Shown here in pieces: positions 1-29,034 of a stretch of 64,000 nt of DNA (position 1 is its first letter; each line of letters begins with the position of its first letter). A model generated the notes under the pieces. The model was given only the letters and a program-made list of their open reading frames with translations, was not told the DNA's origin and did not search any database. The stretch comes from an uncultured Granulosicoccaceae bacterium. Its GTDB lineage: Bacteria > Pseudomonadota > Gammaproteobacteria > Granulosicoccales > Granulosicoccaceae. The position numbers and the translations under genes were made by a program. The stretch spans positions 62,001 through 126,000 of the forward strand of contig CALGLE010000018.1 in the NCBI GenBank assembly GCA_937930305.1, in the 5' to 3' direction.

Positions 1-930
1 ATCATTTTAATGTTCGCCGGGGATGCCTTGGTGCGCGGGGCGATGGGCATCAGTTTACGATCGGGCCTGTCAGCCACCTTTGTCAGTCTAACGGTTGTCG
101 CCTTAGGCACCTCCTTGCCAGAATTATTAGTTAGTGTGCAAGCGGCCCTAAGCGGCTCGCCCGATATGGCACTCGGTAACGTAATTGGCAGCAACGTAGC
201 CAACATACTGTTAATTCTCGGGGTACCCGCCCTCATCTTGGCCGTGCACACTCATGCAACGGAACATCGGCGCAATGTGATGATGATGCTAGCTGCCACG
301 CTGGCATTCGCTGCCGTGGCTTGGACCGGATCCATCAATCGGCTTGCAGGAGTCGGTTTTTTAGTCGCACTGGTTGCCATTATCGCGCTTAGCCTGCATT
401 TCTCTAAGTCCACCGCCGGCAGCGATGAAACGCCCAGCACGGCCGATTCAATCGACCCGCACACAGCTCATGAATCCACCCTAAAATTACTCGGCTTTTT
501 GCTCGTGGGCATTATTGGCTTACCCATTGGTGCGCAGGGCTTGATTGAAGGCGCTCGCGATATCGCGCTCGCGGTTGGCCTATCTGAAAGCGCTGTGGGG
601 TTAACGGTTATCGCGCTGGGCACCTCCCTTCCTGAATTGGCGGCTAGTGTTGCAGCCGCCATGCGCGGGCGAACCGATGTCATCATGGGCAATGTGATTG
701 GGTCCAATTTGATGAACATACTGGCCATCATCGGAATCACCTCCCTAATCTCGCCCTTATCCACTCAATCGGCTTTAGTGAGAATTGACATCGTAATGCT
801 GGTCGGCATCAGCGCGATTTTGGCATTAATCGTTCTGGCTAAATGGTCTATTGGTAAAGGGTTGGGGCTAGCGTTTCTTGGCGGATACGCCGTGTTTACG
901 TGGCTGGCCTTGAGTCACTCAGCGGGCTAA
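1..930 (+). CDS. Calcium/sodium antiporter (CaCA/YrbG family), 5' end missing
   Basis: Inner-membrane cation exchanger of the Ca2+:cation antiporter superfamily, expected to expel Ca2+ in exchange for Na+. The two family repeats are visible. Each contains an alpha-repeat motif, GTSLPELLVS near the start and GTSLPELAAS in the second half, each followed by a GNVIGSN motif that carries the ion-coordinating Glu and Asn. About ten hydrophobic segments surround them. The reading frame is open from base 1 (I-I-L before the first Met at base 10). In this family the segment resembling AGDALVRGA follows an N-terminal helix, so the true start lies upstream of the window and the Met at 10 is probably internal. 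It converges on and overlaps the 3' end of the binding-protein-like gene by 35 bp. Confidence 0.9.
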   Translation: MILMFAGDALVRGAMGISLRSGLSATFVSLTVVALGTSLPELLVSVQAALSGSPDMALGNVIGSNVANILLILGVPALILAVHTHATEHRRNVMMMLAATLAFAAVAWTGSINRLAGVGFLVALVAIIALSLHFSKSTAGSDETPSTADSIDPHTAHESTLKLLGFLLVGIIGLPIGAQGLIEGARDIALAVGLSESAVGLTVIALGTSLPELAASVAAAMRGRTDVIMGNVIGSNLMNILAIIGITSLISPLSTQSALVRIDIVMLVGISAILALIVLAKWSIGKGLGLAFLGGYAVFTWLALSHSAG

Positions 931-1672
931 CCGATAAGCGCCCAGTTACACCGTGATGATCAATGCGCTGCTGAACAAAACCCGAAGCAATGCTGTGTTG
1001 CACAAATTGATGCAGCCAGGTGGAAGCCTCGCTTAGGCCATGACGACAACCAATACTTTGCTGCACTGCCGTAAAACTTTGCTCCACTATTCGGGTGCCC
1101 GGTCGTGCTGCCCGTTCTTTTAACAGGGGCGGACGCAAGCCCGCCAGTGCATCCAGTGGCTTCGTTAAGAATAATTCCACAGAACTTTCAAAACTGTCGG
1201 TGGTTTCAATTTGCGCGTTTTGTAAATTGTCACGCAGCCACAATTCATAGGCTGCACGAGCCTTAGCCGCAATGCGAATACCCGCAGCATCCACATCCGC
1301 CGGTGTTTGGAACGGGCTGTCTTCTAAGACCAGATAAGTTGCCTGTATTTCGCAATAACTGGGTGAGAACGCGATGGTTTTCGCACGTTCAGGTTCGGCC
1401 GCGATGTTACCAATATCCCAGGCGTTCTCGTCAAGCGCATCAGCGACAAAACCGGGACCGGGATAGGGCAACAACTTCACCGGAACATCCAACGCCTGCG
1501 CAATGGCCGCAGCCATATCAGGGGACACCCCAACCGGATCTCCAGCTGCCGACTCACCAGTGACCAACAAACCATTGGTCATATTGATGGCGGCACGTAA
1601 AACCCCCGTTGGGCACAACTGCGAACGAACTCGTTCAAGATCATGTTCAGTCACGATGCAAGTTAACTCCAC
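896..1672 (-). CDS. Periplasmic-binding-protein-like (SBP_bac_3 fold) protein without signal peptide
   Basis: A 258-residue protein resembling the solute-binding proteins of amino-acid ABC transporters. It has the N-terminal pattern G-V-L-R-A-A-I-N, then DPVGVSPDMAAAIAQAL, then a WDIGNIAAEPER segment typical of the ligand-binding lobe. No signal peptide or lipobox precedes it, so it appears cytoplasmic. This argues against an ordinary transport role. It may be a ligand sensor, or an enzyme built on the binding-protein fold, as in cyclohexadienyl dehydratase. The start is GTG at 1672 and overlaps the stop of the 6-hydroxynicotinate reductase gene by 10 bp. It is therefore probably the last gene of the catabolic operon, and no ABC permease or ATPase lies nearby. 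The exact function is unknown. Confidence 0.75.
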   Translation of the reverse strand: MELTCIVTEHDLERVRSQLCPTGVLRAAINMTNGLLVTGESAAGDPVGVSPDMAAAIAQALDVPVKLLPYPGPGFVADALDENAWDIGNIAAEPERAKTIAFSPSYCEIQATYLVLEDSPFQTPADVDAAGIRIAAKARAAYELWLRDNLQNAQIETTDSFESSVELFLTKPLDALAGLRPPLLKERAARPGTRIVEQSFTAVQQSIGCRHGLSEASTWLHQFVQHSIASGFVQQRIDHHGVTGRLSVSPLSDSRPAT

Positions 1673-3156
1673 GAATAGTTTTTAGCCGCCAAGGCCCAAG
1701 GGATATCGGTTTCGTTACTCACAGAACGTTCAAATTCTGCCCGGATGCTATCCAATTCCACGATGGCGTCTTCATAGCCACCAAGCGCTAAAAAGTCCGA
1801 ACGGCGCAAGCTAAATTCTATGGGGGCGACCAGTGCCGGAGTGGGTACATAGCCGAAGGCATGACGGGGCATATCTAACACGTTCGCCATAATCGTGATG
1901 CCGCCACCAGGCCAACGATACACGGGCGCGCCACCACAAGTAATTTGTGTTAACCGTCGCTGCACCGATTGGGTTAATCGTACTGGGTTCTCTGTGACCC
2001 CAGCTCGTAAACTGCCACCAGCGCCACCCATAAACAACACCGTGCATAAAGAGGGTTCGCAGTTTTCAGCAATACGTTCAACCGAGGGTTGCAACGCCTC
2101 GGGCATGGCAACCGGTTGCGGCACCAGGGCTTCATCCAATTCGAAGTAGGCGTATTGTTCCCCGGTGGTGGAAATCATTAACAAGCGCAATCCCGCTTGC
2201 GCTGTTTGTTCTTTAAAGCCTTCAATTAAAGCTAAGGGATCATCAATGTCGGTACCACCCCAACCACTACCGGGTTCGGCGACTTGAAAGTAACGCCCCG
2301 GGGTAGAACGTCGCCCCTTAATTCGAATGCCACTGGGCTCCATCCCCAACATGCGCCCGGCTTGGTGTTCGGATAACACGCCCGTGATGTGATCGTCCAC
2401 CACAACCACCTCATCCACATAGGGCGCCCATTGACGAGCGAACATGCCAATGGTCGCTGAACCACAACCCACTCGCATCACTTCTTCGGTAATGCCATTA
2501 ACCACCGGCGCGCAACCGGCTTGAACTTGCACCGTGGCACCCTCATCAATGTTCATTTCTACAGCTTCACGATTACATAAAGCCAGTAAGGCTTCGCAAG
2601 TAATTCGGCCCTCTTTTTTGGAACCACCCGTTAAATGATTGACCCCACCCAACGACAACATTTGCGAGCCGTATTCGCCGGTGGTCACGTGCCCAACCGC
2701 CTCACCTTCTACTCGCACCAACGCCTGCTCAGGCCCTAAATGACGGTCAGTATCAATTTTGATTTTTACACCGCAGTAACTAAAAATGCCTTCGGTTACT
2801 ACAGTCACCATATCGACGTCATCGATTTGCTGGCTAACAATAAACGGTGCGGGTTTGTAATCGGGGTAAGTCGTACCCGCGCCAATGGCCGTAACAAACG
2901 GTTTACTCGGTTGCAGCCATTGACCATCCCAGTTATCCGATGAGGTGTCTTTGCGCAAAAACTCCACAACCTGAGCATCTTCTTGCTGCTGCTGATGTTG
3001 CAACACCGTAAATGGATCCACTCGGACTAAGTCGCCACCGTCGTTCGCGTAACGATCGCAGGCACCGGTTCGACCATCCTTGATGTAACACAACACAGGA
3101 CAGGCATCACAACGGATTTTTCCGTTCGGTTCGGGAACCACGGATTGACGAACCAT
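1663..3156 (-). CDS. hnr: 6-hydroxynicotinate reductase-like Fe-S flavoprotein
   Basis: Predicted to reduce 6-hydroxynicotinate to 1,4,5,6-tetrahydro-6-oxonicotinate, the dearomatising step of nicotinate fermentation in Eubacterium barkeri. The 497-residue sequence opens with a cysteine cluster C16-x2-C19-x3-C23-x9-C33, suited to a [4Fe-4S] cluster, and has further Cys in the middle (for example C128, C187, C194). A DEGAT segment places Thr208 in a context similar to the (S/T)GAT core that ApbE-type enzymes flavinylate. The E. barkeri enzyme is known to carry covalent flavin and Fe-S clusters. The gene starts with ATG 4 bp after the molybdenum hydroxylase gene and overlaps the next gene by 10 bp. 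Family assignment is by recognition of overall sequence and context. The substrate is inferred from the neighbours (enamidase, Mo hydroxylase) and could be another N-heterocycle. Confidence 0.8.
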   Translation of the reverse strand: MVRQSVVPEPNGKIRCDACPVLCYIKDGRTGACDRYANDGGDLVRVDPFTVLQHQQQQEDAQVVEFLRKDTSSDNWDGQWLQPSKPFVTAIGAGTTYPDYKPAPFIVSQQIDDVDMVTVVTEGIFSYCGVKIKIDTDRHLGPEQALVRVEGEAVGHVTTGEYGSQMLSLGGVNHLTGGSKKEGRITCEALLALCNREAVEMNIDEGATVQVQAGCAPVVNGITEEVMRVGCGSATIGMFARQWAPYVDEVVVVDDHITGVLSEHQAGRMLGMEPSGIRIKGRRSTPGRYFQVAEPGSGWGGTDIDDPLALIEGFKEQTAQAGLRLLMISTTGEQYAYFELDEALVPQPVAMPEALQPSVERIAENCEPSLCTVLFMGGAGGSLRAGVTENPVRLTQSVQRRLTQITCGGAPVYRWPGGGITIMANVLDMPRHAFGYVPTPALVAPIEFSLRRSDFLALGGYEDAIVELDSIRAEFERSVSNETDIPWALAAKNYSWS

Positions 3157-3160
3157 AGCT

Positions 3161-5851
3161 TCAGCCCTTTTCTATGGCCGCAAGCACCGCATCGGGTGTT
3201 GCAGGCAATCGTGAGATACGCGCACCACATGCGTCTCGTATCGCGTTTAAGATAGCGGGGGCTGTGGGGATGAGCACGTGCTCGCCTAAGCCTTTAGCGC
3301 CATAAGGGCCTTCAGCATCCGCCACTTCAACAACGATGGATTCAATCGGCGGAATATCACCAATGGTGGGAATCAAGTAGTCGTGTAAATTCTCTGTGCG
3401 CCCGGGAATATAACGCTCCATTAAAGCCAGTCCAATCCCTTGGGCCACCCCGCCTTGAATTTGCCCTTCCACCAGATCTGGATTGATCGCACGGCCAACA
3501 TCATGTGCGGCCACAAATCGAGTTAACTCCACTTTACCAATAGCCACATCCACACTCAGTTCCACCATTTGCACGGCATAGCCGTACATGGCATAGGGTT
3601 CACCTTGCCCATTATCATCCAGTGGTAAGGTGGGTGGATCGTAGGTCTCACTGACACACGCGATATAGCCTTCTTCATCCACGAGCAGTTCCGCCCGATT
3701 GACTGTGTTATCAAAACGAGCCATTTGTTCACGAAGAGCAAGCCCTGCAAGACGCGCTGCATTGCCCGACACAAATGTTTGACGTGAAGCCGACGTTTTA
3801 CCCGCATCGGGGGTGATGTCGGTATCGCTACTCACCAATTGAATTTGATCCAGCGGCACACCAAACGCATCCGCAAAGATTTGTGCAATAACCGTGTTCG
3901 AACCTTGCCCGATGTCTACCGCACCTTGATGCAAACAAACACTGCCATCCAATTTAACACCCGCCTTAATGGTAGATGGGTTGGGCAATGACGTATTCCC
4001 ACAGCCGTACCAACCACTGGCAATACCGACGCCGTATCGCACACTAGAACCTGTTTGCGCAGCGTTTGCATTGGCTTGTTTGGCATTATTTATTGCGCTA
4101 TCCCAATGCGTTTGCACCGCATTCAAACATTCGGTAATGCCAACGGAGTCTTTAAATATTTGACCCGTCACTGTGGGTTGCCCATTTTTTAACGCATTGT
4201 GTTTTCGGAACGCCAAACGATCCATACCAAGCTGGATAGCTAAGTCATCAAACGCGCTTTCTTGTGCAATGGTTGCCTGCGGCACACCGAAGCCACGAAA
4301 GGCACCGCTGGGCGCGCAATGCGTAAAGACCGCTTTGGAATTAGCTTGATAATGGGGAATTAAATAGGGGCCGGACGCGTGTATGGGCACGCGATTCGCC
4401 ACTGTTGGCCCCCAAGAGGCGTAAGCACCGGTATTAAATAGGCCGTTAAACGTAGCGGCGGTCAGTGTGCCATTTTCGTCACAACCAAAGCGCACTTGTA
4501 TAGCTGCCGGATGTCGTTTAGTGGTGGATTGCATCGATTCACGCCGGGTGAACGTCACGCGCACGGGACGATTTAAATGCCAAGCGGCGATGGCGACCAA
4601 GGGTTGCCAAGACAAATCTAACTTCGATCCAAATCCGCCACCGGTTGCACTGGACACCATGCGCACAGCCGATTCTTCTAACCCCAGCACATCAGCCACC
4701 GCGTTGCGATTCATAAAGGGCGCTTGCGTGCAACCGAACATGGTCAAGCGTTCGCCGTCTCGCACCGCATAGCCGGCTTCAGGTTCCAAGTAGGCATGTT
4801 CAACAAAGCCCGTGTCGATACTCACTTGCGCCGTGTAGCGCGACTGGTTCAACGCCTGTTCAGGATCACCGCGTTTTACTAAGCCTTCACACATCGCGTT
4901 GTTCGGTGCGTATTCATGCAAGATCGGAGAGCTGGGTTCCAACGCAGATGCAGCGGTTAAGACGCATTCCAATTCCTCAAACTGAACCGGAAAGTCTTCG
5001 CCAGAAAAAGCCGCCATGGCCTCGGCCTCCCCCACTACAGCCGCAACCGCCTCACCTTTGAAGCGAGTTTCTTTTTCTGCAAACACCGGTTGATCTAAAA
5101 ACGGCGGAATCACACCAAAGGCGTTTTTTCCTGGCACATCCGAGGCGGTGAATACACGCAGAATGCCCTCATGGTTTGCAAGGTAACGGGTCAAATCTCC
5201 GAACGAAAATTTGGCTCGATGAAATGGTGCACGGATGACCTTTAACACCAAAGCGTTATGCGGCGCCACATCATCACCGAAACGTTCGGTGCCGATCACT
5301 TTGGGTACACCATCGAGTCGTATGGGTGACGTGCCGACACTGTCAGCCTCAGGATGGGCACCGAGCGAATTCAGCAACGCATTTGGATTTGCCGGTGCGT
5401 TTTCCGCTTCGCAAACCGCTGTTAAAATCTTGCGATAACCCGTGCAGCGACACAGAACCCCACCGAGTGCATCTTTGGCAGCTTGCTCGCACGGCGATGG
5501 ATTTTTTCTGAGTAAAGGTGTTGCAGCTACCAATAATCCAGGCGTACAAACCCCACATTGCGAGGCACCGTGCTGCAAAAACGATGCAGCGAGTTGCTGG
5601 GTTACCGTCTCAGATTCCATTAAGCCTGCTACCGTGTCCACTCGTCGCCCAGAGACCTGACCCACCGGCACCAAGCAGGCACACACCACTTCACCATCTA
5701 ACAGAACTGAGCACAGTCCACAATCGCCCGCATTACAACCCACTTTCACATCTTGGCAATGGGCGTGCTCTCGTAATGCATCACTCAATCGATGCGTTGA
5801 TGGGAGCTGTACTGACGTCACTTGACCATTCAGTGTAAATTCGATGCTCAT
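3161..5851 (-). CDS. Molybdenum hydroxylase, fused 2Fe-2S and molybdopterin subunit (nicotinate dehydrogenase-like)
   Basis: An 896-residue xanthine-dehydrogenase-family oxidoreductase in which the iron-sulfur and molybdopterin subunits are one polypeptide. Residues 1-150 hold two [2Fe-2S] clusters: C39, C44, C47 and C59, then C99, C102, C134 and C136. From about residue 175 the Mo domain follows, with TGGGFGSK, GAFRGFGVPQ, a DIGQGSNT motif, and near the C-terminus GAKGLGE, which carries the catalytic Glu. It should hydroxylate a nitrogen heterocycle such as nicotinate at C-6, with electrons passing to the FAD subunit encoded just upstream (7-bp gap). The start is ATG at 5851. The neighbouring reductase and enamidase genes make 6-hydroxynicotinate the likely product, but the sequence alone does not fix the substrate. 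Confidence 0.88.
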   Translation of the reverse strand: MSIEFTLNGQVTSVQLPSTHRLSDALREHAHCQDVKVGCNAGDCGLCSVLLDGEVVCACLVPVGQVSGRRVDTVAGLMESETVTQQLAASFLQHGASQCGVCTPGLLVAATPLLRKNPSPCEQAAKDALGGVLCRCTGYRKILTAVCEAENAPANPNALLNSLGAHPEADSVGTSPIRLDGVPKVIGTERFGDDVAPHNALVLKVIRAPFHRAKFSFGDLTRYLANHEGILRVFTASDVPGKNAFGVIPPFLDQPVFAEKETRFKGEAVAAVVGEAEAMAAFSGEDFPVQFEELECVLTAASALEPSSPILHEYAPNNAMCEGLVKRGDPEQALNQSRYTAQVSIDTGFVEHAYLEPEAGYAVRDGERLTMFGCTQAPFMNRNAVADVLGLEESAVRMVSSATGGGFGSKLDLSWQPLVAIAAWHLNRPVRVTFTRRESMQSTTKRHPAAIQVRFGCDENGTLTAATFNGLFNTGAYASWGPTVANRVPIHASGPYLIPHYQANSKAVFTHCAPSGAFRGFGVPQATIAQESAFDDLAIQLGMDRLAFRKHNALKNGQPTVTGQIFKDSVGITECLNAVQTHWDSAINNAKQANANAAQTGSSVRYGVGIASGWYGCGNTSLPNPSTIKAGVKLDGSVCLHQGAVDIGQGSNTVIAQIFADAFGVPLDQIQLVSSDTDITPDAGKTSASRQTFVSGNAARLAGLALREQMARFDNTVNRAELLVDEEGYIACVSETYDPPTLPLDDNGQGEPYAMYGYAVQMVELSVDVAIGKVELTRFVAAHDVGRAINPDLVEGQIQGGVAQGIGLALMERYIPGRTENLHDYLIPTIGDIPPIESIVVEVADAEGPYGAKGLGEHVLIPTAPAILNAIRDACGARISRLPATPDAVLAAIEKG

Positions 5852-5858
5852 GACTTAC

Positions 5859-6704
5859 TTAGGCTCGACTGGATTGACTTAAAGAATCACAAAGCGACAA
5901 TAACGTACGTTCCACAATCGATCGCACGACGGTTAATCGATAGGCCGCTGAACCGCGCACATCATCGATGGGTGATAATTCCTGGAATGTACAAGCGGCC
6001 ACACAGGCTTTCAACGATTCAACGTCACGCACAGCCAATCCGATGAGCGATTGCTCTAGTTGTTTAAGACGTTCTGCAACAGGAGAACAAGACCCCACGG
6101 CGATCGCGCAATGATTTATTCGTCCCTCATCATCACAATCGATATTAATCGCCAACATGGCGATGGATATCACTAAATATTTGCGTGCACCCAACTTGAT
6201 GAATTCACTGCATTGCGACACAGTGGGTGCAGGAATTTTGATGGCCGTGATCAATTCATCGGGTTGGCGCTGAGTGCTGCGAACACCAAGAATAAACTCG
6301 GATAATTCAAGGGTGCGTGTCATACCCACTTTTTGCAGTTCCACGGACGCATTCAAAGCCAACAAAACCGGTACACCGTCGGCCGCAGGCGATGCATTGC
6401 ACAAATTGCCCACAACCGTGGCTCGATTTTGAATCTGCACCGATCCCACTTCACGAGCTGCAGCTTTCAAGCCATCAAACGCGGGGGGTAAATCAGCGTT
6501 TATCACTTCAGTCCACGTCACCCCAGCACCAATCGTCCACACCCCATCAACGCACTCGATACGTTTCAACTCATCACAAGCCATGATGTCTATCGCATCA
6601 AGGGGTGCAGGTTCATCCATCAGCGCCGGGTAAAAATCTGTACCGCCTGCAATGATGGGCAGTGGATTTTCAGATAGGCGCTTTAGGGCGTGTTGCAGAT
6701 TCAT
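5859..6704 (-). CDS. FAD-binding subunit of molybdenum hydroxylase (CoxM/XdhB type)
   Basis: A 281-residue FAD subunit that would take electrons from the Fe-S clusters of the adjacent hydroxylase. The N-terminal PIIAGGTDFYPAL segment and the TVVGNLCNASPAAD segment near residue 100 are the two FAD pyrophosphate- and flavin-contacting motifs of the CO-dehydrogenase flavoprotein family. A CO_deh_flav_C-like C-terminal part follows. Its ATG overlaps the stop of the upstream PF06684 gene by 4 bp (ATGA), so translation is probably coupled. With the fused 2Fe-2S/Mo chain it would form a two-polypeptide enzyme, unlike the usual three separate chains. Confidence 0.88.
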   Translation of the reverse strand: MNLQHALKRLSENPLPIIAGGTDFYPALMDEPAPLDAIDIMACDELKRIECVDGVWTIGAGVTWTEVINADLPPAFDGLKAAAREVGSVQIQNRATVVGNLCNASPAADGVPVLLALNASVELQKVGMTRTLELSEFILGVRSTQRQPDELITAIKIPAPTVSQCSEFIKLGARKYLVISIAMLAINIDCDDEGRINHCAIAVGSCSPVAERLKQLEQSLIGLAVRDVESLKACVAACTFQELSPIDDVRGSAAYRLTVVRSIVERTLLSLCDSLSQSSRA

Positions 6705-7288
6705 TGCAAGCCGTCCTTACCCTCTGCCTCTTCGTGTGTAAGCCCACCTACGCGCGGTAACGGTCGACCCGAATCGGTTACCGCCACAGCCACCAGAATT
6801 TCATTGGCTCGCGGAGCATCATTTATGGACACTTCCATGCCATCAAAATGTGAGCGCACATAAGCTGCGTCTTTATGCCCAAGCGGCACATCCAAGACTT
6901 GTCCCATCGACCCCATTTTTTTACTGGAAGCCACTAAAGCTGCGCCTTTTTGCACCGCTGCACGTAACGGTTTTCCTAAGCGCGGGTGAAGAATGGCGGC
7001 GGCGTGCTCAAGTTCTCCGTTTTCACCTACCATCGCAGACTTACCATAGCTTTGCGCCGCTTCAGGTTCTATGCCCAATGCTTCAACAGCGCGTCGACCC
7101 AGCAAGTCCCCCAGTTCCTCGCCAATCACCATGAGTGCTTCAAGGTCTTCAACATATTCTTGAGCATGGGGGTTTTCAATCACCGCCACCGCCGCAGCTC
7201 GCCGCGTTGGTGGGTTGATGGCTTGGCCCATTTCCTGGTGTATTTCATCAACAAACACCGCGATTTTTCGTATTTTTGCGCGACTCAT
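6701..7288 (-). CDS. Amino acid synthesis family protein (PF06684, DUF1185), copy 1
   Basis: A 195-residue member of the poorly characterised 'amino acid synthesis' family. Recognisable features are the N-terminal RKIAVFVDEIHQE, a central GKSAMVGENGELEHAAA and the C-terminal DVPLGHKDAAYVRSHFD and INDAPRANEILVAVAV segments, all shared with the second copy at 8216-8812. The name is historical and no reaction is established. The start chosen is ATG at 7288. It has a good AGGAG ribosome site and a 4-bp ATGA overlap with the upstream UPF0280 gene, whereas an in-frame start 36 bp further upstream has neither. Tight coupling to the hydroxylase and reductase genes suggests a role in this catabolic enzyme system, perhaps as an accessory or metabolite-processing protein. 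Confidence 0.82.
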   Translation of the reverse strand: MSRAKIRKIAVFVDEIHQEMGQAINPPTRRAAAVAVIENPHAQEYVEDLEALMVIGEELGDLLGRRAVEALGIEPEAAQSYGKSAMVGENGELEHAAAILHPRLGKPLRAAVQKGAALVASSKKMGSMGQVLDVPLGHKDAAYVRSHFDGMEVSINDAPRANEILVAVAVTDSGRPLPRVGGLTHEEAEGKDGLQ

Positions 7289-8241
7289 GCACACTCTCCT
7301 ATAGACATACGCTGCCCTTGGCAATCGATGAACACCGCCTTGATGGTGGCTTCTTGCATAATCGTTTTCGCCGCTTTCAACCCTCGCTGCAATGCAGCGT
7401 GACGATGTTGTTTGGGTAATTTATCAACGTGCGTGGTAACCCATGCGTCACCCAAATCTGAGTCTGGCTGTAACTCAACCGCCTGCACACGACGTACGAA
7501 TGTTCTGTCTAATTCGTCACTGGGTAATTGCACTTCATTCGCGATCAGTGTGGCAGCAACATCGGCTGATGCAGCGTTGGGTGCCAACACCGTCACCGCA
7601 TCGGCGATACCGAAGCTGTGACTTCTGCCGGCCCAACCGCTGGTGGCAATCCCACCAATTCCGTCGCCAGAGCGTATTCGGATCTGCGCCGATGGTGTTC
7701 CTTGATGCGTGCAGACAGTAAGTTTTGTATGCGCCCCGTCTGACAACATGAAAGCGATATCACCGCCATTGTTTACCCAAGCCCGTTTTAACGTTGGCAC
7801 CGTTTGCACCATACCGTTTAAAACATGATCGGCCACCGCCCCAGCGACCGCTGCCATGGGAGTCACAAATCGTGCTGAGTGTGGCAAACACGCCTGCCAC
7901 ATCGAAAAAGCCACAACACCAGTAGGCACTGTAGACGCGCTCGTTATCGCACGCCTTAAGTCAGGTAATTCACTAACTAAATCTTCCAACACACCTTCAA
8001 AGACGTCCGTCGCCGCTTGATGGGCCAGCGCAACTTCTGCAGCTGTGCCATCCACATCGATCAACAAATCGATGGGGCCGTAGTGAAGGTGTAAACGTTC
8101 GCGCGATTGTGACGCGCGCCCTCGTGTTTGCGATGGTGTCTCGCATAGCCTGGACTGCGATGGCGAGTTGGGTGCCAGTTTTGTGGCAACAGGCGCCCAG
8201 CCACGAGGCTTGGGTTTAGCGCAAACCGTCGGCACCGACAA
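7285..8241 (-). CDS. UPF0280 family protein (ApbE-like), candidate flavin transferase
   Basis: UPF0280 proteins belong to the ApbE-like fold superfamily, whose characterised members attach FMN covalently to Thr or Ser of target proteins. The 318-residue sequence shows HYGPIDLLIDVDG near residue 55, WVNNGGDIAF, and GIATSGWAGRSHSFGIADAVTV, the segment that corresponds to the metal/flavin site of ApbE relatives. The first 50 residues are variable, so the start is uncertain: TTG at 8241 overlaps the preceding gene by 26 bp, and downstream GTG codons are alternatives. Its position between two PF06684 genes, in an operon with a reductase whose known relative carries covalent flavin, suggests it flavinylates that reductase. 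That link is inference. Confidence 0.8.
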   Translation of the reverse strand: MSVPTVCAKPKPRGWAPVATKLAPNSPSQSRLCETPSQTRGRASQSRERLHLHYGPIDLLIDVDGTAAEVALAHQAATDVFEGVLEDLVSELPDLRRAITSASTVPTGVVAFSMWQACLPHSARFVTPMAAVAGAVADHVLNGMVQTVPTLKRAWVNNGGDIAFMLSDGAHTKLTVCTHQGTPSAQIRIRSGDGIGGIATSGWAGRSHSFGIADAVTVLAPNAASADVAATLIANEVQLPSDELDRTFVRRVQAVELQPDSDLGDAWVTTHVDKLPKQHRHAALQRGLKAAKTIMQEATIKAVFIDCQGQRMSIGECA

Positions 8242-8812
8242 TCTCAGCCGCTTTCAGCCCGCCCACGCGTTCATGGACACGCGCACCGGTGCTCATAACC
8301 AGGGCTAATAACATCTCGTTGGCGCGGGGTGCATCGTTCACACCCACGGTCACAGTGTCAAAGTGACTGCGCACATAGGAGGCATTGATATGTGTTAAGG
8401 GCACGTCCAACTGCGTGCCCGGGCTACCCACCTTTTTGGTGGACGGCACGATGGCTTTGGAATCGCCCAATAATTCACGCATGGCGTAGCCGCCAGGCAC
8501 ATGCCATAGCGCGCCGTGCTCCAGTTCCCCAGCGCCACCCACAATCGCACCTTTACCAAAGCCTTGAACCTTGTCCGGCCCACCTAAGGCATCAATTAAT
8601 CGTTGGGCCATGGTTAAGCCCAACGGCTTAAGCGTGTCCATAAATCCCTCAATATCGGCCGTATAGGCGCCCGCAAAAGGGTTCGCTATAACCGCCAAAC
8701 AGGCCGCTTTTCGCAGCGGCGATGCAGCCACAGGGCCGCCTTCGTGGAAAATCTCTTCCACAGACAGGGCAAATTTTCGCACTTCTATTTCGCTGGGTGA
8801 GGAGGGGCTCAT
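8216..8812 (-). CDS. Amino acid synthesis family protein (PF06684, DUF1185), copy 2
   Basis: A 198-residue paralogue of the 6701-7288 product, with matching landmarks: RKFALSVEEIFHEGG at the N-terminus, GKGAIVGGAGELEHGAL in the middle, and DVPLTHINASYVRSHFD and VNDAPRANEMLLALV near the end. It is the first gene of the minus-strand catabolic operon. The ATG at 8812 faces the MarR regulator across a 93-bp intergenic region that carries a candidate promoter and operator. Its end overlaps the UPF0280 gene. Two diverged copies flanking one ApbE-like gene suggest a heteromeric complex or sequential roles. No biochemical activity can be assigned from sequence. Confidence 0.82.
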   Translation of the reverse strand: MSPSSPSEIEVRKFALSVEEIFHEGGPVAASPLRKAACLAVIANPFAGAYTADIEGFMDTLKPLGLTMAQRLIDALGGPDKVQGFGKGAIVGGAGELEHGALWHVPGGYAMRELLGDSKAIVPSTKKVGSPGTQLDVPLTHINASYVRSHFDTVTVGVNDAPRANEMLLALVMSTGARVHERVGGLKAAEIVGADGLR

Positions 8813-8826
8813 ATTTGCGTTTCATC

Positions 8827-8848
8827 GATCATTGGTGTACGAATGATC
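8827..8848. promoter_or_regulatory. Candidate MarR operator (22-bp dyad)
   Basis: An interrupted palindrome with 7-bp perfect arms GATCATT and AATGATC (8827-8833 and 8842-8848), plus symmetric GT/AC pairs inside. It lies in the divergent region between the operon's first gene and the MarR gene, just downstream of a minus-strand -10 box, where a bound repressor would cover the transcription start. The size and symmetry suit a MarR dimer. Binding is inferred. Confidence 0.55.
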
Positions 8849-8850
8849 TT

Positions 8851-8879
8851 ATTGAAACCGTTGGTTGCTCTAGGGTCAA
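8851..8879 (-). promoter_or_regulatory. Putative sigma-70 promoter of the catabolic operon
   Basis: On the minus strand a TTGACC -35 box (8879-8874) and a TTCAAT -10 box (8856-8851) are separated by 17 bp. The -10 box ends 2 bp before the palindrome at 8827-8848. It would drive the seven-gene operon that begins at 8812. No equally convincing promoter was seen for the forward MarR gene. Confidence 0.45.
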
Positions 8880-8905
8880 CCTTTTTTTGCAAGAATCCGA
8901 ATTCT

Positions 8906-9316
8906 ATGTACCAACTCGACAAGCAAATTGGTTACAAATTGCGCTTGGCGCAGCAGCGACATGTGGAAATTTTTTCAGCGCGCTTGCCAGAAATAACCCC
9001 AATGCAATTCAGCATTATGGTGCGCCTGCGCGATGAGCCAAATGTCTCTCAAAACCAACTCGGCCGATTAGTGCAAATGGATGCTGCTACCACGAAAGGT
9101 GTGGTGGATCGATTGATTGAACGAGGCTGGCTACGATCCCGCCCCAGCGAAACCGACAAACGGCGCAGGAACATTTCATTAACGGCTCGCGGCCACGAAT
9201 TTTTAGAATACGCCATAGTTGCGGCCGCTGACATCACGAAAAAAACGTTGCAGCCCTTAAACAACGCTGAGCAGAACCAATTGCTAAACCTGCTCGACCG
9301 ATTAAAATCTGATTAA
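8906..9316 (+). CDS. MarR family transcriptional regulator (NicR-like)
   Basis: A 136-residue winged-helix regulator. The recognition region reads NVSQNQLGRLVQMDAAT followed by KGVVDRLIERGWLRS, and the wing contains RSRPSETDKRRRNISLTARG, as in MarR proteins. The ATG at 8906 is preferred because MarR proteins begin with a helix like YQLDKQIGYKLRLAQ, and an upstream in-frame start at 8843 would add 21 unrelated residues. It is divergent from the catabolic operon and 33 bp upstream of the enamidase gene, with which it is probably co-transcribed. In Pseudomonas putida the MarR protein NicR represses nicotinate genes and responds to 6-hydroxynicotinate. A similar role here is a reasonable inference. 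Confidence 0.85.
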   Translation: MYQLDKQIGYKLRLAQQRHVEIFSARLPEITPMQFSIMVRLRDEPNVSQNQLGRLVQMDAATTKGVVDRLIERGWLRSRPSETDKRRRNISLTARGHEFLEYAIVAAADITKKTLQPLNNAEQNQLLNLLDRLKSD

Positions 9317-9349
9317 TTCTTTACCGTTAACTTTTGTGGAAAAACCAGT

Positions 9350-10528
9350 ATGAGCGAAGCCACCCAGAAACTCGTCATTAAGAACATTGGTCGTATGTTA
9401 TCGGGCAAGCTCGAAGAACCGCTAATTGACGGCAATTGTATTGTGGCGATTGACGGCAAGATCACAGAAATTGGTGACTATAAAACCCTAAACACAGATC
9501 AAGCAACAACCGAAATTGATGCTAATGATGTTTGGGTAGCACCCGGTCTAATCGATAGCCACGTACACCCCGTCATTGGTGATTACACACCAAGACAACA
9601 ACAAATTCATTGGATTGATTCCTGTTTGCATGGTGGGGTAACCACCATGATTTCAGCAGGCGAAGTGCACATGCCTGGTCGCCCAAAAGACATCATTGGT
9701 TTAAAAGCAATGGCAATTGCCTCGCAACGTTGGTATGAAAATTTTCGCCCCAGCGGGGTGAAAATGCACGCAGGGGCTCCCGTGCTTGAAGAAGGCATGG
9801 AAGAGCACGACTTTAAAGAGTTGGCTGAAGCCGGTGTAAAACTCCTGGGCGAAGTGGGTTTAGGGTCTGTGAAAGCCGGTGAAACCGCAGCGCAAATGGT
9901 TAAGTGGGCTCGTAAATACGGCATTCAATCCACGATTCATACCGGTGGCCCGTCAATCCCCGGTTCTGGTTTAATCGATAAGGATGTCGTTCTAGAAGCG
10001 GACGCTGACATCATCGGCCATATCAACGGAGGCCATACTGCCCTACCCGATGACCAAATCATGTGTTTGTGTGAAGGCTGCCAGCGCGGTATTGAAATTG
10101 TGCATAACGGTAATGAGCGCGCCGGTCTTTTAGCAATGCGCACCGCATTTGAATTAGAACAGTCAGAACGCGTCATTTTAGGTACCGATTCGCCGGCAGG
10201 ATCTGGCGTGCAACCGCTTGGGATTTTGCGCATGATTGCGATGTTGTCTAGTCTCGGTAATGTGCCCGCAGAAATTGCATTTTGTTTTGCTACCGGCAAC
10301 ACCGCGCGCATGCGAGAGTTGGATACCGGTGTATTGGAAGTGGGTATGTCAGCAGACTTTATCTTATTAGATCAAGCGCAGCACTCACCCGGAAAAGACA
10401 TGCTTGAAAGCATCGAACAAGGCAATCTACCGGGTATTGGAATGACCGTGATTGATGGTGAAGTGCGTTCTCATCGCAGCAGAAACACGCCACCTGCGAC
10501 CCGATTACCTTCTGTGGTTAGCGCTTAG
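9350..10528 (+). CDS. ena: Enamidase-like amidohydrolase
   Basis: A 392-residue amidohydrolase-superfamily enzyme, close in length and architecture to Eubacterium barkeri enamidase, which opens 1,4,5,6-tetrahydro-6-oxonicotinate to 2-formylglutarate and ammonia. Metal-ligand candidates are H71 and H73 in the GLIDSHVHP motif, E168 in GEVGLGS (in the place often held by a carboxylated Lys), H197 in IHTGG, H224 or H229 in GHINGGH, and D280 in GTDSPAG. It follows the MarR gene by 33 bp on the plus strand and faces away from the hydroxylase/reductase operon. Pairing with a 6-hydroxynicotinate reductase-like gene is the main reason for choosing enamidase over a general imidazolonepropionase- or dihydroorotase-like amidohydrolase. 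Confidence 0.82.
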   Translation: MSEATQKLVIKNIGRMLSGKLEEPLIDGNCIVAIDGKITEIGDYKTLNTDQATTEIDANDVWVAPGLIDSHVHPVIGDYTPRQQQIHWIDSCLHGGVTTMISAGEVHMPGRPKDIIGLKAMAIASQRWYENFRPSGVKMHAGAPVLEEGMEEHDFKELAEAGVKLLGEVGLGSVKAGETAAQMVKWARKYGIQSTIHTGGPSIPGSGLIDKDVVLEADADIIGHINGGHTALPDDQIMCLCEGCQRGIEIVHNGNERAGLLAMRTAFELEQSERVILGTDSPAGSGVQPLGILRMIAMLSSLGNVPAEIAFCFATGNTARMRELDTGVLEVGMSADFILLDQAQHSPGKDMLESIEQGNLPGIGMTVIDGEVRSHRSRNTPPATRLPSVVSA

Positions 10529-13620: not shown

Positions 13621-13637
13621 GCTAGGGAAGGAAGTTG

Positions 13638-14306
13638 ATGAATATCCTGCTCGTTGAAGACCACCGCTTGGTCGCTGACGCTATGCAGATCATGCTCAAA
13701 CAGCTCGGATCTGATGTCACAGTTACAGCCTGCTACTCCACGCAGCATGCCTTATCTCTCCTGGACGAGCAGCCGCGTTTCGATCTTATATTGTCCGATC
13801 TAATCATGCCGGGCATTGATGGTTTGGGTTTATTGGTTGGCTTAAACAACCGTGGGGTTCGCGTTCCTGTGGTCATGATCTCGGGCGTGGACGATGAGCG
13901 TGCCATTCGCAATGCTTATGACAATGGCGCAGCCGGTTTTTTTAGTAAAAGTATGCCTAGCGTTGAGTTGGTCAATGGCCTAAAGCGTGTTCTAGCCGGT
14001 AAACGATGCTTTCCAGAACGCATGACAATGGAAGACTGCTCCTCCGTAGGTCAATCGCGTAACAGCACGCGTACCGCCGCCGATGGATTTACTCGCAAGC
14101 CAGGTGAGAAACAATTACAGGTTCTTCGCTTAATGGCAGATGGCAATTCCAACAAGCAGATCTCGCAAATTGTGGGTATCAGTGAAGCCACGGTGAAATA
14201 CCACACCTCTCAGTTATTCAAGCTGTTGTCAGTGAAAAACCGCACCTCATGCGTGCGAGAAGCGCATTCGCGCGGCTTATTGAGCAGCTACGAAAACGCG
14301 TCTTGA
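13638..14306 (+). CDS. NarL/FixJ-family response regulator (REC-LuxR HTH)
   Basis: A 222-residue two-component response regulator. The receiver domain (1-120) shows the acidic pair in VEDHR, the phospho-acceptor Asp54 in LILSDLIMPG, a conserved Ser in MISG and the Lys in FFSKSMP. A LuxR-type helix-turn-helix spans about 150-210, with NSNKQISQIVGISEATVKYHTSQLFKLL. ATG 13638 is chosen: a GGAAGGAAG ribosome site precedes it and a TTG lies just one codon upstream. No histidine kinase gene is adjacent, so it is an orphan. Its 3' end overlaps the convergent queuosine transporter gene by 19 bp. Confidence 0.9.
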   Translation: MNILLVEDHRLVADAMQIMLKQLGSDVTVTACYSTQHALSLLDEQPRFDLILSDLIMPGIDGLGLLVGLNNRGVRVPVVMISGVDDERAIRNAYDNGAAGFFSKSMPSVELVNGLKRVLAGKRCFPERMTMEDCSSVGQSRNSTRTAADGFTRKPGEKQLQVLRLMADGNSNKQISQIVGISEATVKYHTSQLFKLLSVKNRTSCVREAHSRGLLSSYENAS

Positions 14307-17804: not shown

Positions 17805-18557
17805 TTACAACAACAACTCCCCTGCCAACCACTGTTGTGCAGCAAGGCTCTTTGGCGTTTCAAAAAACGGCGCGGCGGCTTGCTGCTCTACCAGCGCACC
17901 TTGATTCATCAACAACACCTCGTCAGCCAAGCGCTTAACTTGATTTAAATCATGACTGACAATCACGATTCGACACCCTTGATTCGCCGCTTGTTTTAGC
18001 ATCGCCTCAATGGGGGCCGTAGAAACAGGATCTACGCTGGCAGTCGGTTCGTCCAAGAACAGTATCGCAGGTTCAAGCACTAATGCACGCGCCAAAGCCA
18101 ACCGCTGTTGTTCCCCAGCGGAAAGACGCTGTGCTGGGGTGTTGACAATAGCGGCTAATCCAGCGGTCTCCAAAGCCTGGAGCGCTTTTTCCTTGGCCTC
18201 TCTGTGTTCGTATCCGCGGGCTTTGAGGGCATAGACAACGTTGTTTGTAGCCGACCGAGCCAACAAAGCCGGTCGCTGGCTAACAAACCCCACCGCTAAG
18301 CGGGTGGTTTGTTGCGTGGCATGCACTGCCGCGGTTGGACTCAATGCTGGCTTGCCGCCCCAAGTGACACGTCCAGTGTCTGGTTGCAATAGCCCGCCTA
18401 AAATTCTTAATAGCAACGATTTTCCCGCACCGTTCGGCCCGATGATCGCGGTGCATGGAGCGGTTCCAACGCATACGGATTCTACCGAGAGTAACTGGCG
18501 CTCTTGCCGCTTAACCGAGAGGTCATAGGCCTCAATGGGCAATACCGATTCAGCCAT
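17805..18557 (-). CDS. tupC: ABC transporter ATP-binding protein (tungstate/molybdate type, TupC-like)
   Basis: A 250-residue ATPase of a small importer. Walker A is GPNGAGKSLLLRIL, the Q-loop is in VGFVSQRPALLARS, the signature is LSAGEQQRLALARAL, Walker B is ILFLDEPTASVD and the switch His is in IVSHDLNQ. It overlaps the permease gene: a GTG at 18560 would give a GTGA overlap, and the ATG at 18557 coincides with the first stop-codon base. The partner permease is most like tungstate TupB. Supply of molybdate or tungstate would suit the molybdenum hydroxylase encoded in this window, but specificity is inferred. Confidence 0.82.
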   Translation of the reverse strand: MAESVLPIEAYDLSVKRQERQLLSVESVCVGTAPCTAIIGPNGAGKSLLLRILGGLLQPDTGRVTWGGKPALSPTAAVHATQQTTRLAVGFVSQRPALLARSATNNVVYALKARGYEHREAKEKALQALETAGLAAIVNTPAQRLSAGEQQRLALARALVLEPAILFLDEPTASVDPVSTAPIEAMLKQAANQGCRIVIVSHDLNQVKRLADEVLLMNQGALVEQQAAAPFFETPKSLAAQQWLAGELLL

Positions 18558-19276
18558 CACAGAACATCTACCGATGTACTGTTTCGCGATACCGCCCGCG
18601 TGCCGAGCATGACTAAAATATTCACTATGATGGCGATGGAAACCAACACCATGCCCAAACCCAAAGCTAAGCTCAGATTCCCTTTAGAGGTTTCCAACGC
18701 AATGGTGGTTGTCATCACGCGCGTCACGTGGTTGATATTGCCACCCACAACGATCACTGCCCCCACCTCAGCAATGGCGCGTCCAAACCCTGCCAACAGT
18801 GTGGTGGCCAAAGCCGCCCGTGTCTCCCACAACAATGTCAGCATGCGCTGCCAACGGTTAACCGCAAACAACGTTAGCTGGTCTGACAATTGTTCGTGTG
18901 AGCGAGCGATGTGTTGACGCGATAGGGCCGCCACGATGGGGGTGACCAACAACGCTTGCGCGATAACCATCGCAGTGGGTGTGTACAACAACTGCAAGGG
19001 CCCAAGCGCGCCGGCATTCGACAACAATAAATACACCACTAAGCCAACCACCACCGGCGGCAAACCCATGAGAGCCGTAATGAGCAAAACCACGACCCCA
19101 CGGCCTGGAAATCGATGCACCGCCAACCAAGCCCCCAGTGGCAGCCCAAGAATCGCTGCGATGAGTACGGCTGCTCCGCTAACCTGCAGCGAGAGTATGA
19201 TGATTTCGGCCAAGCTGGCGTCAAACTCTGTGATGAGCCGGACCGCCTCAGCGATGGCACCCGAAAAGCCTGCCAT
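18557..19276 (-). CDS. tupB: ABC transporter permease (tungstate TupB-like)
   Basis: A 239-residue inner-membrane permease with about five hydrophobic segments. The binding-protein-dependent transport signature is seen in LLAGFGRAIAEVGAVIVVGGN, which pairs with the ATPase through its EAA-type loop. The sequence resembles TupB tungstate permeases, with the characteristic NINHVTRVMTTTIALETSKGN after the loop. ATG 19276 is chosen; a longer frame reaching 19396 would overlap the divergent mbfA gene and adds an arginine-rich leader unlike the family. No tupA binding-protein gene is adjacent, which is unusual for this transporter. Confidence 0.82.
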   Translation of the reverse strand: MAGFSGAIAEAVRLITEFDASLAEIIILSLQVSGAAVLIAAILGLPLGAWLAVHRFPGRGVVVLLITALMGLPPVVVGLVVYLLLSNAGALGPLQLLYTPTAMVIAQALLVTPIVAALSRQHIARSHEQLSDQLTLFAVNRWQRMLTLLWETRAALATTLLAGFGRAIAEVGAVIVVGGNINHVTRVMTTTIALETSKGNLSLALGLGMVLVSIAIIVNILVMLGTRAVSRNSTSVDVL

Positions 19277-19313
19277 GTTAACTTGTCGTTGGAAGTTGAG
19301 TAACGAAGTCTGA

Positions 19314-20303
19314 ATGATGACACAAACCCGCTGGATACCTTCACGTCGGCGCCGATTTCGAAGCTTAAGTGAGCAAGAAATACTGGCGTTAGCCATATCG
19401 TCAGAGGAAGACGATGGTCGAATCTATCGCGCCTATGCGGATGGCTTAAGGGGCGATTTTCCTGCCAGTGCCAGCGTTTTCGATGCGATGGCCGATGAAG
19501 AGGACAACCACCGTCAGCTCCTGATCGATCTGCACCGCGAGCGATTTGGCGACACGATTCCGTTAATTCGGCGTGAGCACGTCAGTGGTTACTATGAACG
19601 CAGCCCCGATTGGCTAATGCGGCCTTTATCACTGGAAAAAACGCGCGAAGTAGTGGAAAAAATGGAACGCGACGCGGAACGTTTTTATTTAGCCGCCGCC
19701 GCTCAAACCAGCGATGCCTCCACCCGCAAGCTGCTCGGTGACTTGGCCCATGCCGAAGGCAACCATCAATCGATGGCGGTCAACCTGCAAACCGAGCTTC
19801 TACCCGATGATGTGCGTGCGGAGGAGGACGATAAGGCTGAGAAACAATTTCTTCTCACCTATGTTCAACCTGGGCTCGCGGGGTTGATGGATGGCTCAAT
19901 TTCTACGCTAGCGCCCATCTTCGCTGCTGCTTTTGCCACCGGCAGAACCTGGGAAACCTTTCTGATTGGTTTATCCGCATCGGTGGGCGCTGGTATTTCC
20001 ATGGGCTTCACGGAAGCTGCACACGACGACGGGGTATTAAGCGGTCGCGGCTCACCTATAAAACGCGGATTTTCATCAGGAATCATGACGCTAATTGGTG
20101 GTCTAGGGCATACCTTGCCTTATCTCATTCCCGATTTTAAGATTGCCACCACGGTAGCCATTGCCATTGTGTTCGTCGAGTTGTGGCTGATCACCTGGAT
20201 ACAAAACAAATACATGGAGACCCCTTGGGGACGAGCCATGTTTCAAGTGTTGCTTGGCGGCTCTTTAGTGTTTGCTGCTGGCATCTTGATTGGCCACGCC
20301 TGA
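19314..20303 (+). CDS. mbfA: MbfA-like ferritin-VIT1 membrane iron exporter
   Basis: A 329-residue two-domain protein. The N-terminal domain (about 20-165) is ferritin-like, with iron-ligand Glu residues in SSEEDDGRIYRAYADGL, MADEEDNHRQLL, EKMERDAERFYLAA and LAHAEGNHQSM. The C-terminal domain (about 180-325) is a VIT1/CCC1-type iron/manganese transporter with PGLAGLMDGSISTLAPIFAAA and a GFTEAAHDDG loop. MbfA proteins export iron or protect against peroxide. The start (ATG ATG at 19314) is 37 bp from the divergent tupB start. The stop TGA at 20301 is in the same frame as the following MFS gene. Confidence 0.9.
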   Translation: MMTQTRWIPSRRRRFRSLSEQEILALAISSEEDDGRIYRAYADGLRGDFPASASVFDAMADEEDNHRQLLIDLHRERFGDTIPLIRREHVSGYYERSPDWLMRPLSLEKTREVVEKMERDAERFYLAAAAQTSDASTRKLLGDLAHAEGNHQSMAVNLQTELLPDDVRAEEDDKAEKQFLLTYVQPGLAGLMDGSISTLAPIFAAAFATGRTWETFLIGLSASVGAGISMGFTEAAHDDGVLSGRGSPIKRGFSSGIMTLIGGLGHTLPYLIPDFKIATTVAIAIVFVELWLITWIQNKYMETPWGRAMFQVLLGGSLVFAAGILIGHA

Positions 20304-29022: not shown

Positions 29023-29034
29023 AAGATTCGGCCC

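Follow-up and report, generated by a model that had tools for sequence, protein, structure and literature searches.

The best described relatives of the locus considered here are the genes for nicotinate fermentation in Eubacterium barkeri and a proteobacterial cluster built around 6-hydroxynicotinate reductase (HNR), for which nine Proteobacteria had reportedly been listed already in 2006; Azorhizobium is said to degrade nicotinate by a route via glutarate. The cluster is conserved in Azorhizobium caulinodans and in Bradyrhizobiaceae, where strain SG-6C, with a homologous cluster and an HNR 42% identical to that of E. barkeri, breaks down both nicotinate and 6-hydroxynicotinate for carbon, with glutarate proposed as the likely ending (sections of PMC3511419). 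Here we describe a cluster at positions 896-10528 of a 64,000-nucleotide stretch of DNA (the window; G000:C18:62001-126000 of a genome searched as 4.2 Mb in 55 contigs) from an uncultured marine Granulosicoccaceae bacterium; it is very probably an Azorhizobium/Bradyrhizobium-type operon for nicotinate catabolism. The best named matches come from Granulosicoccus MAGs, and the source is most likely Granulosicoccus or close to it. The initial annotation had recognised a molybdenum (Mo) hydroxylase, an HNR-like protein, an enamidase-like amidohydrolase, one MarR gene and a divergent region, all of which are present on the strands it implied; four genes of the operon, namely two of the DUF1185 family, one of the UPF0280 family and one resembling SBP_bac_3, were not mentioned there.

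Seven genes form a minus-strand operon running from 8812 down to 896, with overlaps or spacers of at most 7 bases between neighbours, in the 5' to 3' order DUF1185 a, UPF0280, DUF1185 b, FAD subunit, fused Fe-S/molybdopterin subunit, HNR and SBP_bac_3-like gene, while the MarR and enamidase genes lie on the plus strand, divergent from the operon. The features are as follows.

896-1672, minus strand: SBP_bac_3-fold protein (PF00497, 41.6 bits), last operon gene, overlapping the HNR stop
1663-3156, minus strand: HNR homologue of 497 residues, from alignments and the names of plasmid homologues
3161-5851, minus strand: Mo hydroxylase, fused [2Fe-2S] and molybdopterin subunit with a predicted nicotinate dehydrogenase role, from Pfam and scores to the Ndh chains
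5859-6704, minus strand: FAD subunit of the Mo hydroxylase (PF00941, PF03450)
6701-7324, minus strand: DUF1185/AA_synth paralogue b (PF06684, 235.8 bits)
7285-8241, minus strand: UPF0280/COG2122 protein with a predicted ApbE-like fold (NF003322, 313 bits, over cut-off; structure model; co-occurrence), its true start probably lying inside this open reading frame (ORF)
8216-8812, minus strand: DUF1185/AA_synth paralogue a, first operon gene (PF06684, 239.4 bits; 3byq, E 3.5e-59)
8827-8848, no strand: inverted repeat GATCATT-N8-AATGATC in the divergent region, candidate operator, one case only
8843-9316, plus strand: MarR regulator with Y-x7-Y-x2-R-x5-H in the register of the BpsR 6-hydroxynicotinate pocket, its true start probably at 8906
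9350-10528, plus strand: enamidase of the amidohydrolase superfamily (2vun)

Nicotinate as the substrate is indicated by two enzymes and a regulator. The match between the enamidase and its E. barkeri counterpart (PDB 2vun) runs end to end, over 382 residues at E 8.6e-105. By summed score, nicotinate dehydrogenase ranks as the nearest solved relative of the Mo hydroxylase, its NdhL, NdhM and NdhS chains giving 253.5, 204.5 and 106.5 bits (564.5 together), whereas the best single aldehyde oxidoreductase reached 393.6 bits and two chains of 4-hydroxybenzoyl-CoA reductase 396.6; this ranking is our own, made by adding bits over chains among 58 listed matches. The third line of evidence is the MarR protein. 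BpsR, a repressor of the same family, contacts 6-hydroxynicotinate through Tyr15, His23, Arg26 and His32 (sections of PMC6837509), and the residues at these spacings in the window protein are Tyr, Tyr, Arg and His, so that three of the four contacts are kept. Tyr, Arg and His were likewise kept in 62 of 69 MarR matches from 102 loci, where the position of His23 was Phe in 42, Tyr in 17 and His in 3. Four of the seven exceptions come from loci with HyuA or HyuAB (L176, L177, L185, L228), two (L186, L187) from loci with an enamidase away from HNR, and the last is L074. As a control, 30 of the 140 MarR matches from five genomes were read, and the pattern occurred in three, all of them HNR-cluster regulators (one of the 27 without it, L245, was read in the wrong frame). 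The NicR regulator of Pseudomonas putida is described as having none of the BpsR contact residues (PMC6837509, in part), which shows that regulators of nicotinate genes do not all have this pocket. The MarR protein is an independent witness for nicotinate, predicted to work like BpsR but, with three of four contacts, not classed as BpsR.

The inverted repeat at 8827-8848 is a single occurrence, and no motif common to relatives was found. A second operator candidate, TTGCATACAAA, which precedes FNR and HyuA ORFs and has exact matches in 12 of 211 loci, was rejected on finding one match with one mismatch in the window against 2.4 expected by chance. The commonest 9-mers upstream of MarR in 69 regions reached counts of up to 17 against background maxima of 6-10 and were dropped as resembling coding sequence.

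Comparison of HNR with Pfam and NCBIfam gave nothing at E <= 0.001. The protein is 62-85% identical to 15 other HNRs, and 17 of the 26 records of plasmid homologues (63-67% identical) are named 6-hydroxynicotinate reductase, the other nine being 'hypothetical protein' or unannotated. Its cysteines C16, C19, C23, C33, C128, C187, C231 and C366 are kept in 48 of 48 aligned sequences. The predicted structure (pLDDT 73, pTM 0.70) gave no match at E <= 0.001 in a Foldseek search of the PDB, and a weak GCV_T_C barrel signal present in 16 of 16 family members (best E 0.00094) was set aside as support.

From gene identities, conservation, effector residues and the presence of a glutaryl-CoA dehydrogenase (GcdH) gene, all read from the DNA, we infer the following reactions, electron donor and repression. 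The Mo hydroxylase (3161-6704) would convert nicotinate to 6-hydroxynicotinate, HNR would reduce this to 1,4,5,6-tetrahydro-6-oxonicotinate with electrons perhaps from NADPH via ferredoxin, and the enamidase would open the ring, releasing ammonium and 2-formylglutarate, which would be decarboxylated and oxidised to glutarate and activated to glutaryl-CoA, from which the GcdH encoded at G000:C20 would form crotonyl-CoA. MarR would repress both arms until 6-hydroxynicotinate relieves repression, and UPF0280 would be a dedicated HNR maturation factor, most likely for the HNR flavin. Ring reduction of nicotinate through 6-hydroxynicotinate and tetrahydro-oxonicotinate, as first suggested for this DNA, finds good support in homology, in the effector-pocket residues and in nicotinate use by SG-6C (PMC3511419, in part).

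A finish to the pathway that is different or lies elsewhere had also been anticipated, and this agrees with the Azorhizobium glutarate route as given in sections of PMC3511419 and with the GcdH gene elsewhere in the genome. The GcdH-like protein (C20:64683-65876) shares 70% identity with the acyl-CoA dehydrogenase encoded next to the L055 cluster and scores 651.9 bits to the Burkholderia and 596 to the human glutaryl-CoA dehydrogenase, though just 222.8 bits, under the cut-off of 470, to the single NCBIfam model for glutaryl-CoA dehydrogenase that was listed; its presence fits an Azorhizobium-type ending through glutarate. No genes for the later E. barkeri steps (formylglutarate reductase, dehydratase, B12 mutase) were recognised by eye among the listed window ORFs, the genome not having been searched for them. 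Several points weigh against the reading as a whole. The name of HNR comes from public annotation and PMC3511419 (in part); the position of BpsR His23 is Tyr in the window MarR; of the genes for a glutarate ending, the search of this genome covered GcdH; and enamidase went unmatched at E <= 1e-60 in 14 of 32 HNR genomes, so HNR does not necessarily act with enamidase in every case.

The pathway had first been taken as unusual for its setting, a view that the survey does not support, as the cluster is common in Proteobacteria and occurs in Acidobacteriota too. A scan of genome contigs for HNR gave at least 591 confirmed loci, of which the best 80 (the named loci, many ending at contig ends) were compared with the window genes. 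They held matches to the Mo subunit in 77 cases (about ten weak), UPF0280 in 76, the two DUF1185 queries in 72 and 71 (cross-hitting), the FAD subunit in 63, MarR in 49, enamidase in 42 and the SBP-like gene in none, a recurrence which indicates that the association of the genes is not chance; five of these loci are from Acidobacteriota (L106, L108, L109, L114, L125). HNR was found in 27 of 57 genomes searched as relatives and in 35 of 398 Pseudomonadota genomes at E <= 0.001 (own genome counted in both), 32 of the latter at E < 1e-90. In addition, named loci contained near HNR a ferredoxin-NADP-reductase-like gene (17 of 80, >= 45% identity), a GcdH-like gene (5, >= 60%) and a succinate-glutarate CoA-transferase-like gene (L067, L075 and L100, >= 55%; 530.8 bits, under the cut-off of 750).

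Both ends of the reductase step vary among these loci. A close enamidase (61-100% identical) is present in 18 of the 32 HNR genomes; of the 14 without it, eight have a HyuA or HyuAB gene within the roughly 20 kb examined, and the other six have neither there. Similarly, among the named loci 42 have enamidase, 7 HyuAB, none both and 31 neither within the DNA at hand. HyuA and HyuB are closest to caprolactamase subunits (492 and 327 bits, both below cut-offs), and the enamidase may therefore be replaced by an ATP-dependent lactamase. Among the 80, the hydroxylase of the FAD type (67 loci) and that of a cytochrome c type (9 loci) are mutually exclusive. Judged by gene content, a fixed reductase core is combined with interchangeable hydroxylases and ring-opening enzymes.

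The SBP-like gene has matches in the two nearest genus relatives only (L003, 76%; L004, 74%), with none in 41 other HNR loci (flanks of about 1.5 kb), the 80 named loci, 14 enamidase-less loci or 6 other loci; no signal peptide is obvious by eye, and the product is possibly an enzyme or a binding protein of the cytosol. DUF1185 occurs in 59 of the 398 genomes, comprising 31 of the 32 with HNR (absent from G192) and 28 others, and in two genomes without HNR it adjoins a gene 40-41% identical to enamidase (L188, G342, 4.1-5.9 kb; L189, G291, 5.1-6.8 kb), pairs which may belong to another pathway having the ring-opening half in common.

A further association is with a Rieske oxygenase, which, counted at >= 50% identity to that of L105, lies near HNR in 12 of the 80 named loci. 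For example, in Granulosicoccus MAG-44 (L046) a contiguous run encodes DUF1185, Rieske oxygenase, substrate-binding protein (SBP), permease, two ATPases, FAD subunit, Mo subunit and HNR, and in Sagittula stellata an annotated ring-hydroxylating dioxygenase alpha subunit stands directly 3' of the DUF1185 pair. The window genome carries its own Rieske copy (PF00355 and VanA_C) with a complete ABC transporter at C1, 155-161 kb, the Rieske protein and SBP being 78% and 80% identical to those of L046. This suggests that the oxygenase and transporter may serve to demethylate trigonelline (N-methylnicotinate), a likely natural source of nicotinate, which would explain their linkage to the cluster; no paper making this connection was found in the open-licence literature searched. 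The same Rieske oxygenase, like the glutaryl-CoA dehydrogenase, would be compatible with another pyridine carboxylate as physiological substrate, for example picolinate or, after demethylation, homarine, a diatom metabolite (PMC9723723 and PMC9038784, in part), passing through 6-hydroxypicolinate and its tetrahydro form to 2-oxoadipate and likewise ending at glutaryl-CoA. We regard this as improbable, however, given the closeness of the hydroxylase to nicotinate dehydrogenase, the match of the MarR pocket to 6-hydroxynicotinate, the CoA-transferase-like genes by HNR in L067, L075 and L100, which suggest free glutarate, and the use of nicotinate by SG-6C (sections of PMC3511419).

UPF0280 is a constant companion of HNR. 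NF003322 was over cut-off in 32 of the 398 genomes, exactly the 32 with a strong HNR match, although these genomes are related and are not 32 independent events; two further genomes gave weak partial matches. The two genes lie within 165 nucleotides in 29 genomes, 316 apart in G435, 561 in G220 and 4.1 kb apart in the window, where they share one operon. Among named loci with at least 1 kb of room, UPF0280 is at most 400 nucleotides downstream of HNR in 67 of 76, overlaps it slightly in two more (L051 and L090) and is elsewhere in the locus in L048, L049, L089 and L091, and none was seen in L046 and L047 (left end cut) or in L096 (uncut). L096, judged from the locus and not the whole genome, is the sole full-length locus of the 80 without a nearby UPF0280, the others being left-cut; at 10.0-11.5 kb in this locus, from Acidisphaera sp. 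L21, stand HNR and one DUF1185 gene, with no UPF0280, hydroxylase or enamidase within 10 kb. In L172 (G071, 9.3-10.8 kb), HNR matches fall in two frames, indicating a split gene or an assembly error, and the UPF0280 match next to it has no internal stop.

The UPF0280 model (pLDDT 88) resembles flavin transferases of the ApbE fold. At E <= 0.001 Foldseek listed DVU1097 (2o34) first and then solely ApbE, Ftp and FmnB types, 27 of 29 matches being ApbE-type (probability 0.97-1.00) and two DVU1097. The resemblance is a partial one, with TM-scores by model length of 0.51-0.53 for DVU1097 and 0.27-0.44 for the ApbE types. Among the conserved motifs of UPF0280 are NNGGDI, ATSG and AD-x-AAT. ApbE proteins carry the catalytic loop motif HxxDP and attach flavin at a canonical target motif, D-x2-[ST]-G-A-[ST], and here two results weigh against a flavin role: alignment A2 of UPF0280 contains no invariant or near-invariant His, leaving the catalytic His loop (H257 in Vibrio cholerae) without a counterpart, and the target motif occurs in 0 of 48 HNRs. 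The E. barkeri HNR is nevertheless said to hold a covalent flavin.

Relatives of UPF0280 in another setting bear on its function. The COG2122 proteins DvMF_0044 and MA1715 are needed for DUF39-based homocysteine synthesis (MA1715 at low sulfide), a co-fitness of 0.98 with DUF39 is reported, and the archaeal MA1715 has been called a sulfur-trafficking protein (sections of PMC5764234). Among 199 Acidobacteriota genomes, seven encode DUF39 (HcyBio), and in all seven a COG2122 match scoring 62-86 bits, under the cut-off, lies no more than about 500 nucleotides from DUF39 (on the opposite strand in G459). In a test of 29 genomes, made up of these seven, three behind HNR loci and 19 others (in which HNR was not sought), COG2122 was over cut-off in the three, while the strongest results from the 19 were a single match at E 1.8e-5 and three more in the range 0.05-0.07. 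Homology between HNR and DUF39 was rejected for now: hmmscan of 16 HNRs did not list HcyBio at E <= 10, though HMMER filters lose most weak matches, and hhalign of the 48-row HNR alignment against HcyBio gave a probability of 0.1%, a weak test with a shallow HNR alignment (Neff 1.9) and one of seven HcyBio rows (L265) wrongly cut to 17 residues. Two COG2122 subfamilies therefore travel each with its own client, the clients themselves without detectable homology.

COG2122 accordingly looks like a client-specific maturation factor, as judged from its predicted fold and gene neighbourhoods, and with two apparently unrelated clients and the reported covalent flavin of HNR, cofactor attachment would be the simplest common function. 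Tentatively, COG2122 could be an ApbE relative that attaches a cofactor to specific clients at a new target motif, recruited to HNR for its covalent flavin and to the DUF39 homocysteine synthase; DUF39 would then bear an unrecognised covalent flavin or similar cofactor, and the 'sulfur trafficking' of MA1715 would be a misreading. A general flavinylator of the Rnf/Nqr type was rejected, because over cut-off UPF0280 follows HNR alone. A role of UPF0280 as a sulfur-trafficking or persulfide factor that feeds the Fe-S clusters of HNR is a serious possibility, if a little short of an even one: the eight cysteines kept in all 48 HNRs, none of which has the canonical ApbE target, the partial match to ApbE without an invariant His, and the proposal made for MA1715 (PMC5764234, in part) all point that way. 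Against it stand the Foldseek matches, ApbE-type flavin transferases in all cases other than DVU1097, and the absence from alignment A2 of any invariant or nearly invariant Cys, which would be odd in a persulfide carrier, together with the flavin that E. barkeri HNR reportedly holds. UPF0280 and the DUF1185 pair might instead be later enzymes of the pathway, for enamine hydrolysis or 2-formylglutarate decarboxylation, as they overlap pathway genes in one operon, as DUF1185 accompanies HNR in nearly all genomes and the enamidase-like gene in the two without HNR, and as the DUF1185 fold is BCM-like (PMC2954203, in part). This is unlikely, since UPF0280 over cut-off never occurs without HNR in the 398 genomes yet persists where enamidase was not found, and so follows the reductase and not the later steps; DUF1185 is also missing from G192, and in L067 and L073 none was seen up to 10 kb from HNR.

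Elsewhere in the window, at 21586-23370 (plus strand), a single ORF of 594 residues combines acetate kinase (PF00871, 424.9 bits) with a phosphate propanoyltransferase of the PduL type (PF06130, 249.3 bits), which would unite both halves of acetate/propionate activation in one protein. An ABC permease and ATPase are encoded at 17805-19396 (minus strand). The permease exceeds the cut-off for a general ABC permease model and is similar to permeases of the TupB type for tungstate (149.7 bits, below cut-off) or the ModB type for molybdate, and this transporter could supply Mo or W. Genes over cut-off for DgcA and DgcN (N-acetyl-D-Glu racemase and N-acetyltransferase) of a D-glutamate catabolic route lie at 28045-30033 (minus strand). 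The segment 14881-16718 (minus strand) encodes PhnM, over cut-off, and a DUF1045 protein, a combination found in phosphonate clusters; no C-P lyase core was recognised by eye among the listed window ORFs. A tRNA-Ala(cgc) called by ARAGORN at 13825-13919 (plus strand) falls inside a response-regulator ORF (13635-14306; PF00072 and GerE) and is probably spurious.

The pathway reading is right, yet already known and common, the cluster having been in print since 2012. What appears to be new is the constant link between HNR and UPF0280, the regulator pocket in these clusters, the exchange of the ring-opening enzyme and the Rieske connection; for the UPF0280 link, no report was found in the open-licence literature searched, which was only partly examined and gives no proof of absence from print. 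HNR is a redox enzyme of nearly 500 residues with no Pfam match over cut-off, no solved relative by sequence or by a middling model, and a constant COG2122 partner. The function of COG2122 in methanogens and sulfate reducers is disputed, and as HNR can be assayed with and without UPF0280, an old question becomes testable. The survey also connects the cluster with possible marine demethylation of trigonelline, through the associated Rieske oxygenase and transporter.

Compared with the E. barkeri nicotinate fermentation (structures 2vun and 3hrd), the hydroxylase and enamidase are homologous and HNR corresponds by name and through PMC3511419 (in part), whereas the Fe-S and molybdopterin subunit is fused here and GcdH in the genome points to another ending. 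From the A. caulinodans ORS571 and SG-6C clusters, for which sections of PMC3511419 propose the glutarate ending, the window differs in that UPF0280 and a pair of DUF1185 genes precede those of the hydroxylase and an SBP-like gene closes the operon, with no transporter of the kind found beside other clusters recognised in 896-10528; its hydroxylase is of the FAD type, while Rhizobium loci have the cytochrome c type. The window MarR and BpsR, the MarR-family protein that represses the nic cluster of Bordetella, share the Tyr, Arg and His contacts in the same register, but BpsR controls nic genes of the aerobic NicC-type route (PMC6837509, in part), and the window protein sits in an HNR cluster with Tyr in place of His23. 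Finally, DVU1097 (2o34, the best match), DvMF_0044 and MA1715 share family and fold with the window UPF0280, but DvMF_0044 and MA1715 serve DUF39-based homocysteine synthesis (PMC5764234, in part), while the subfamily of the window tracks HNR.

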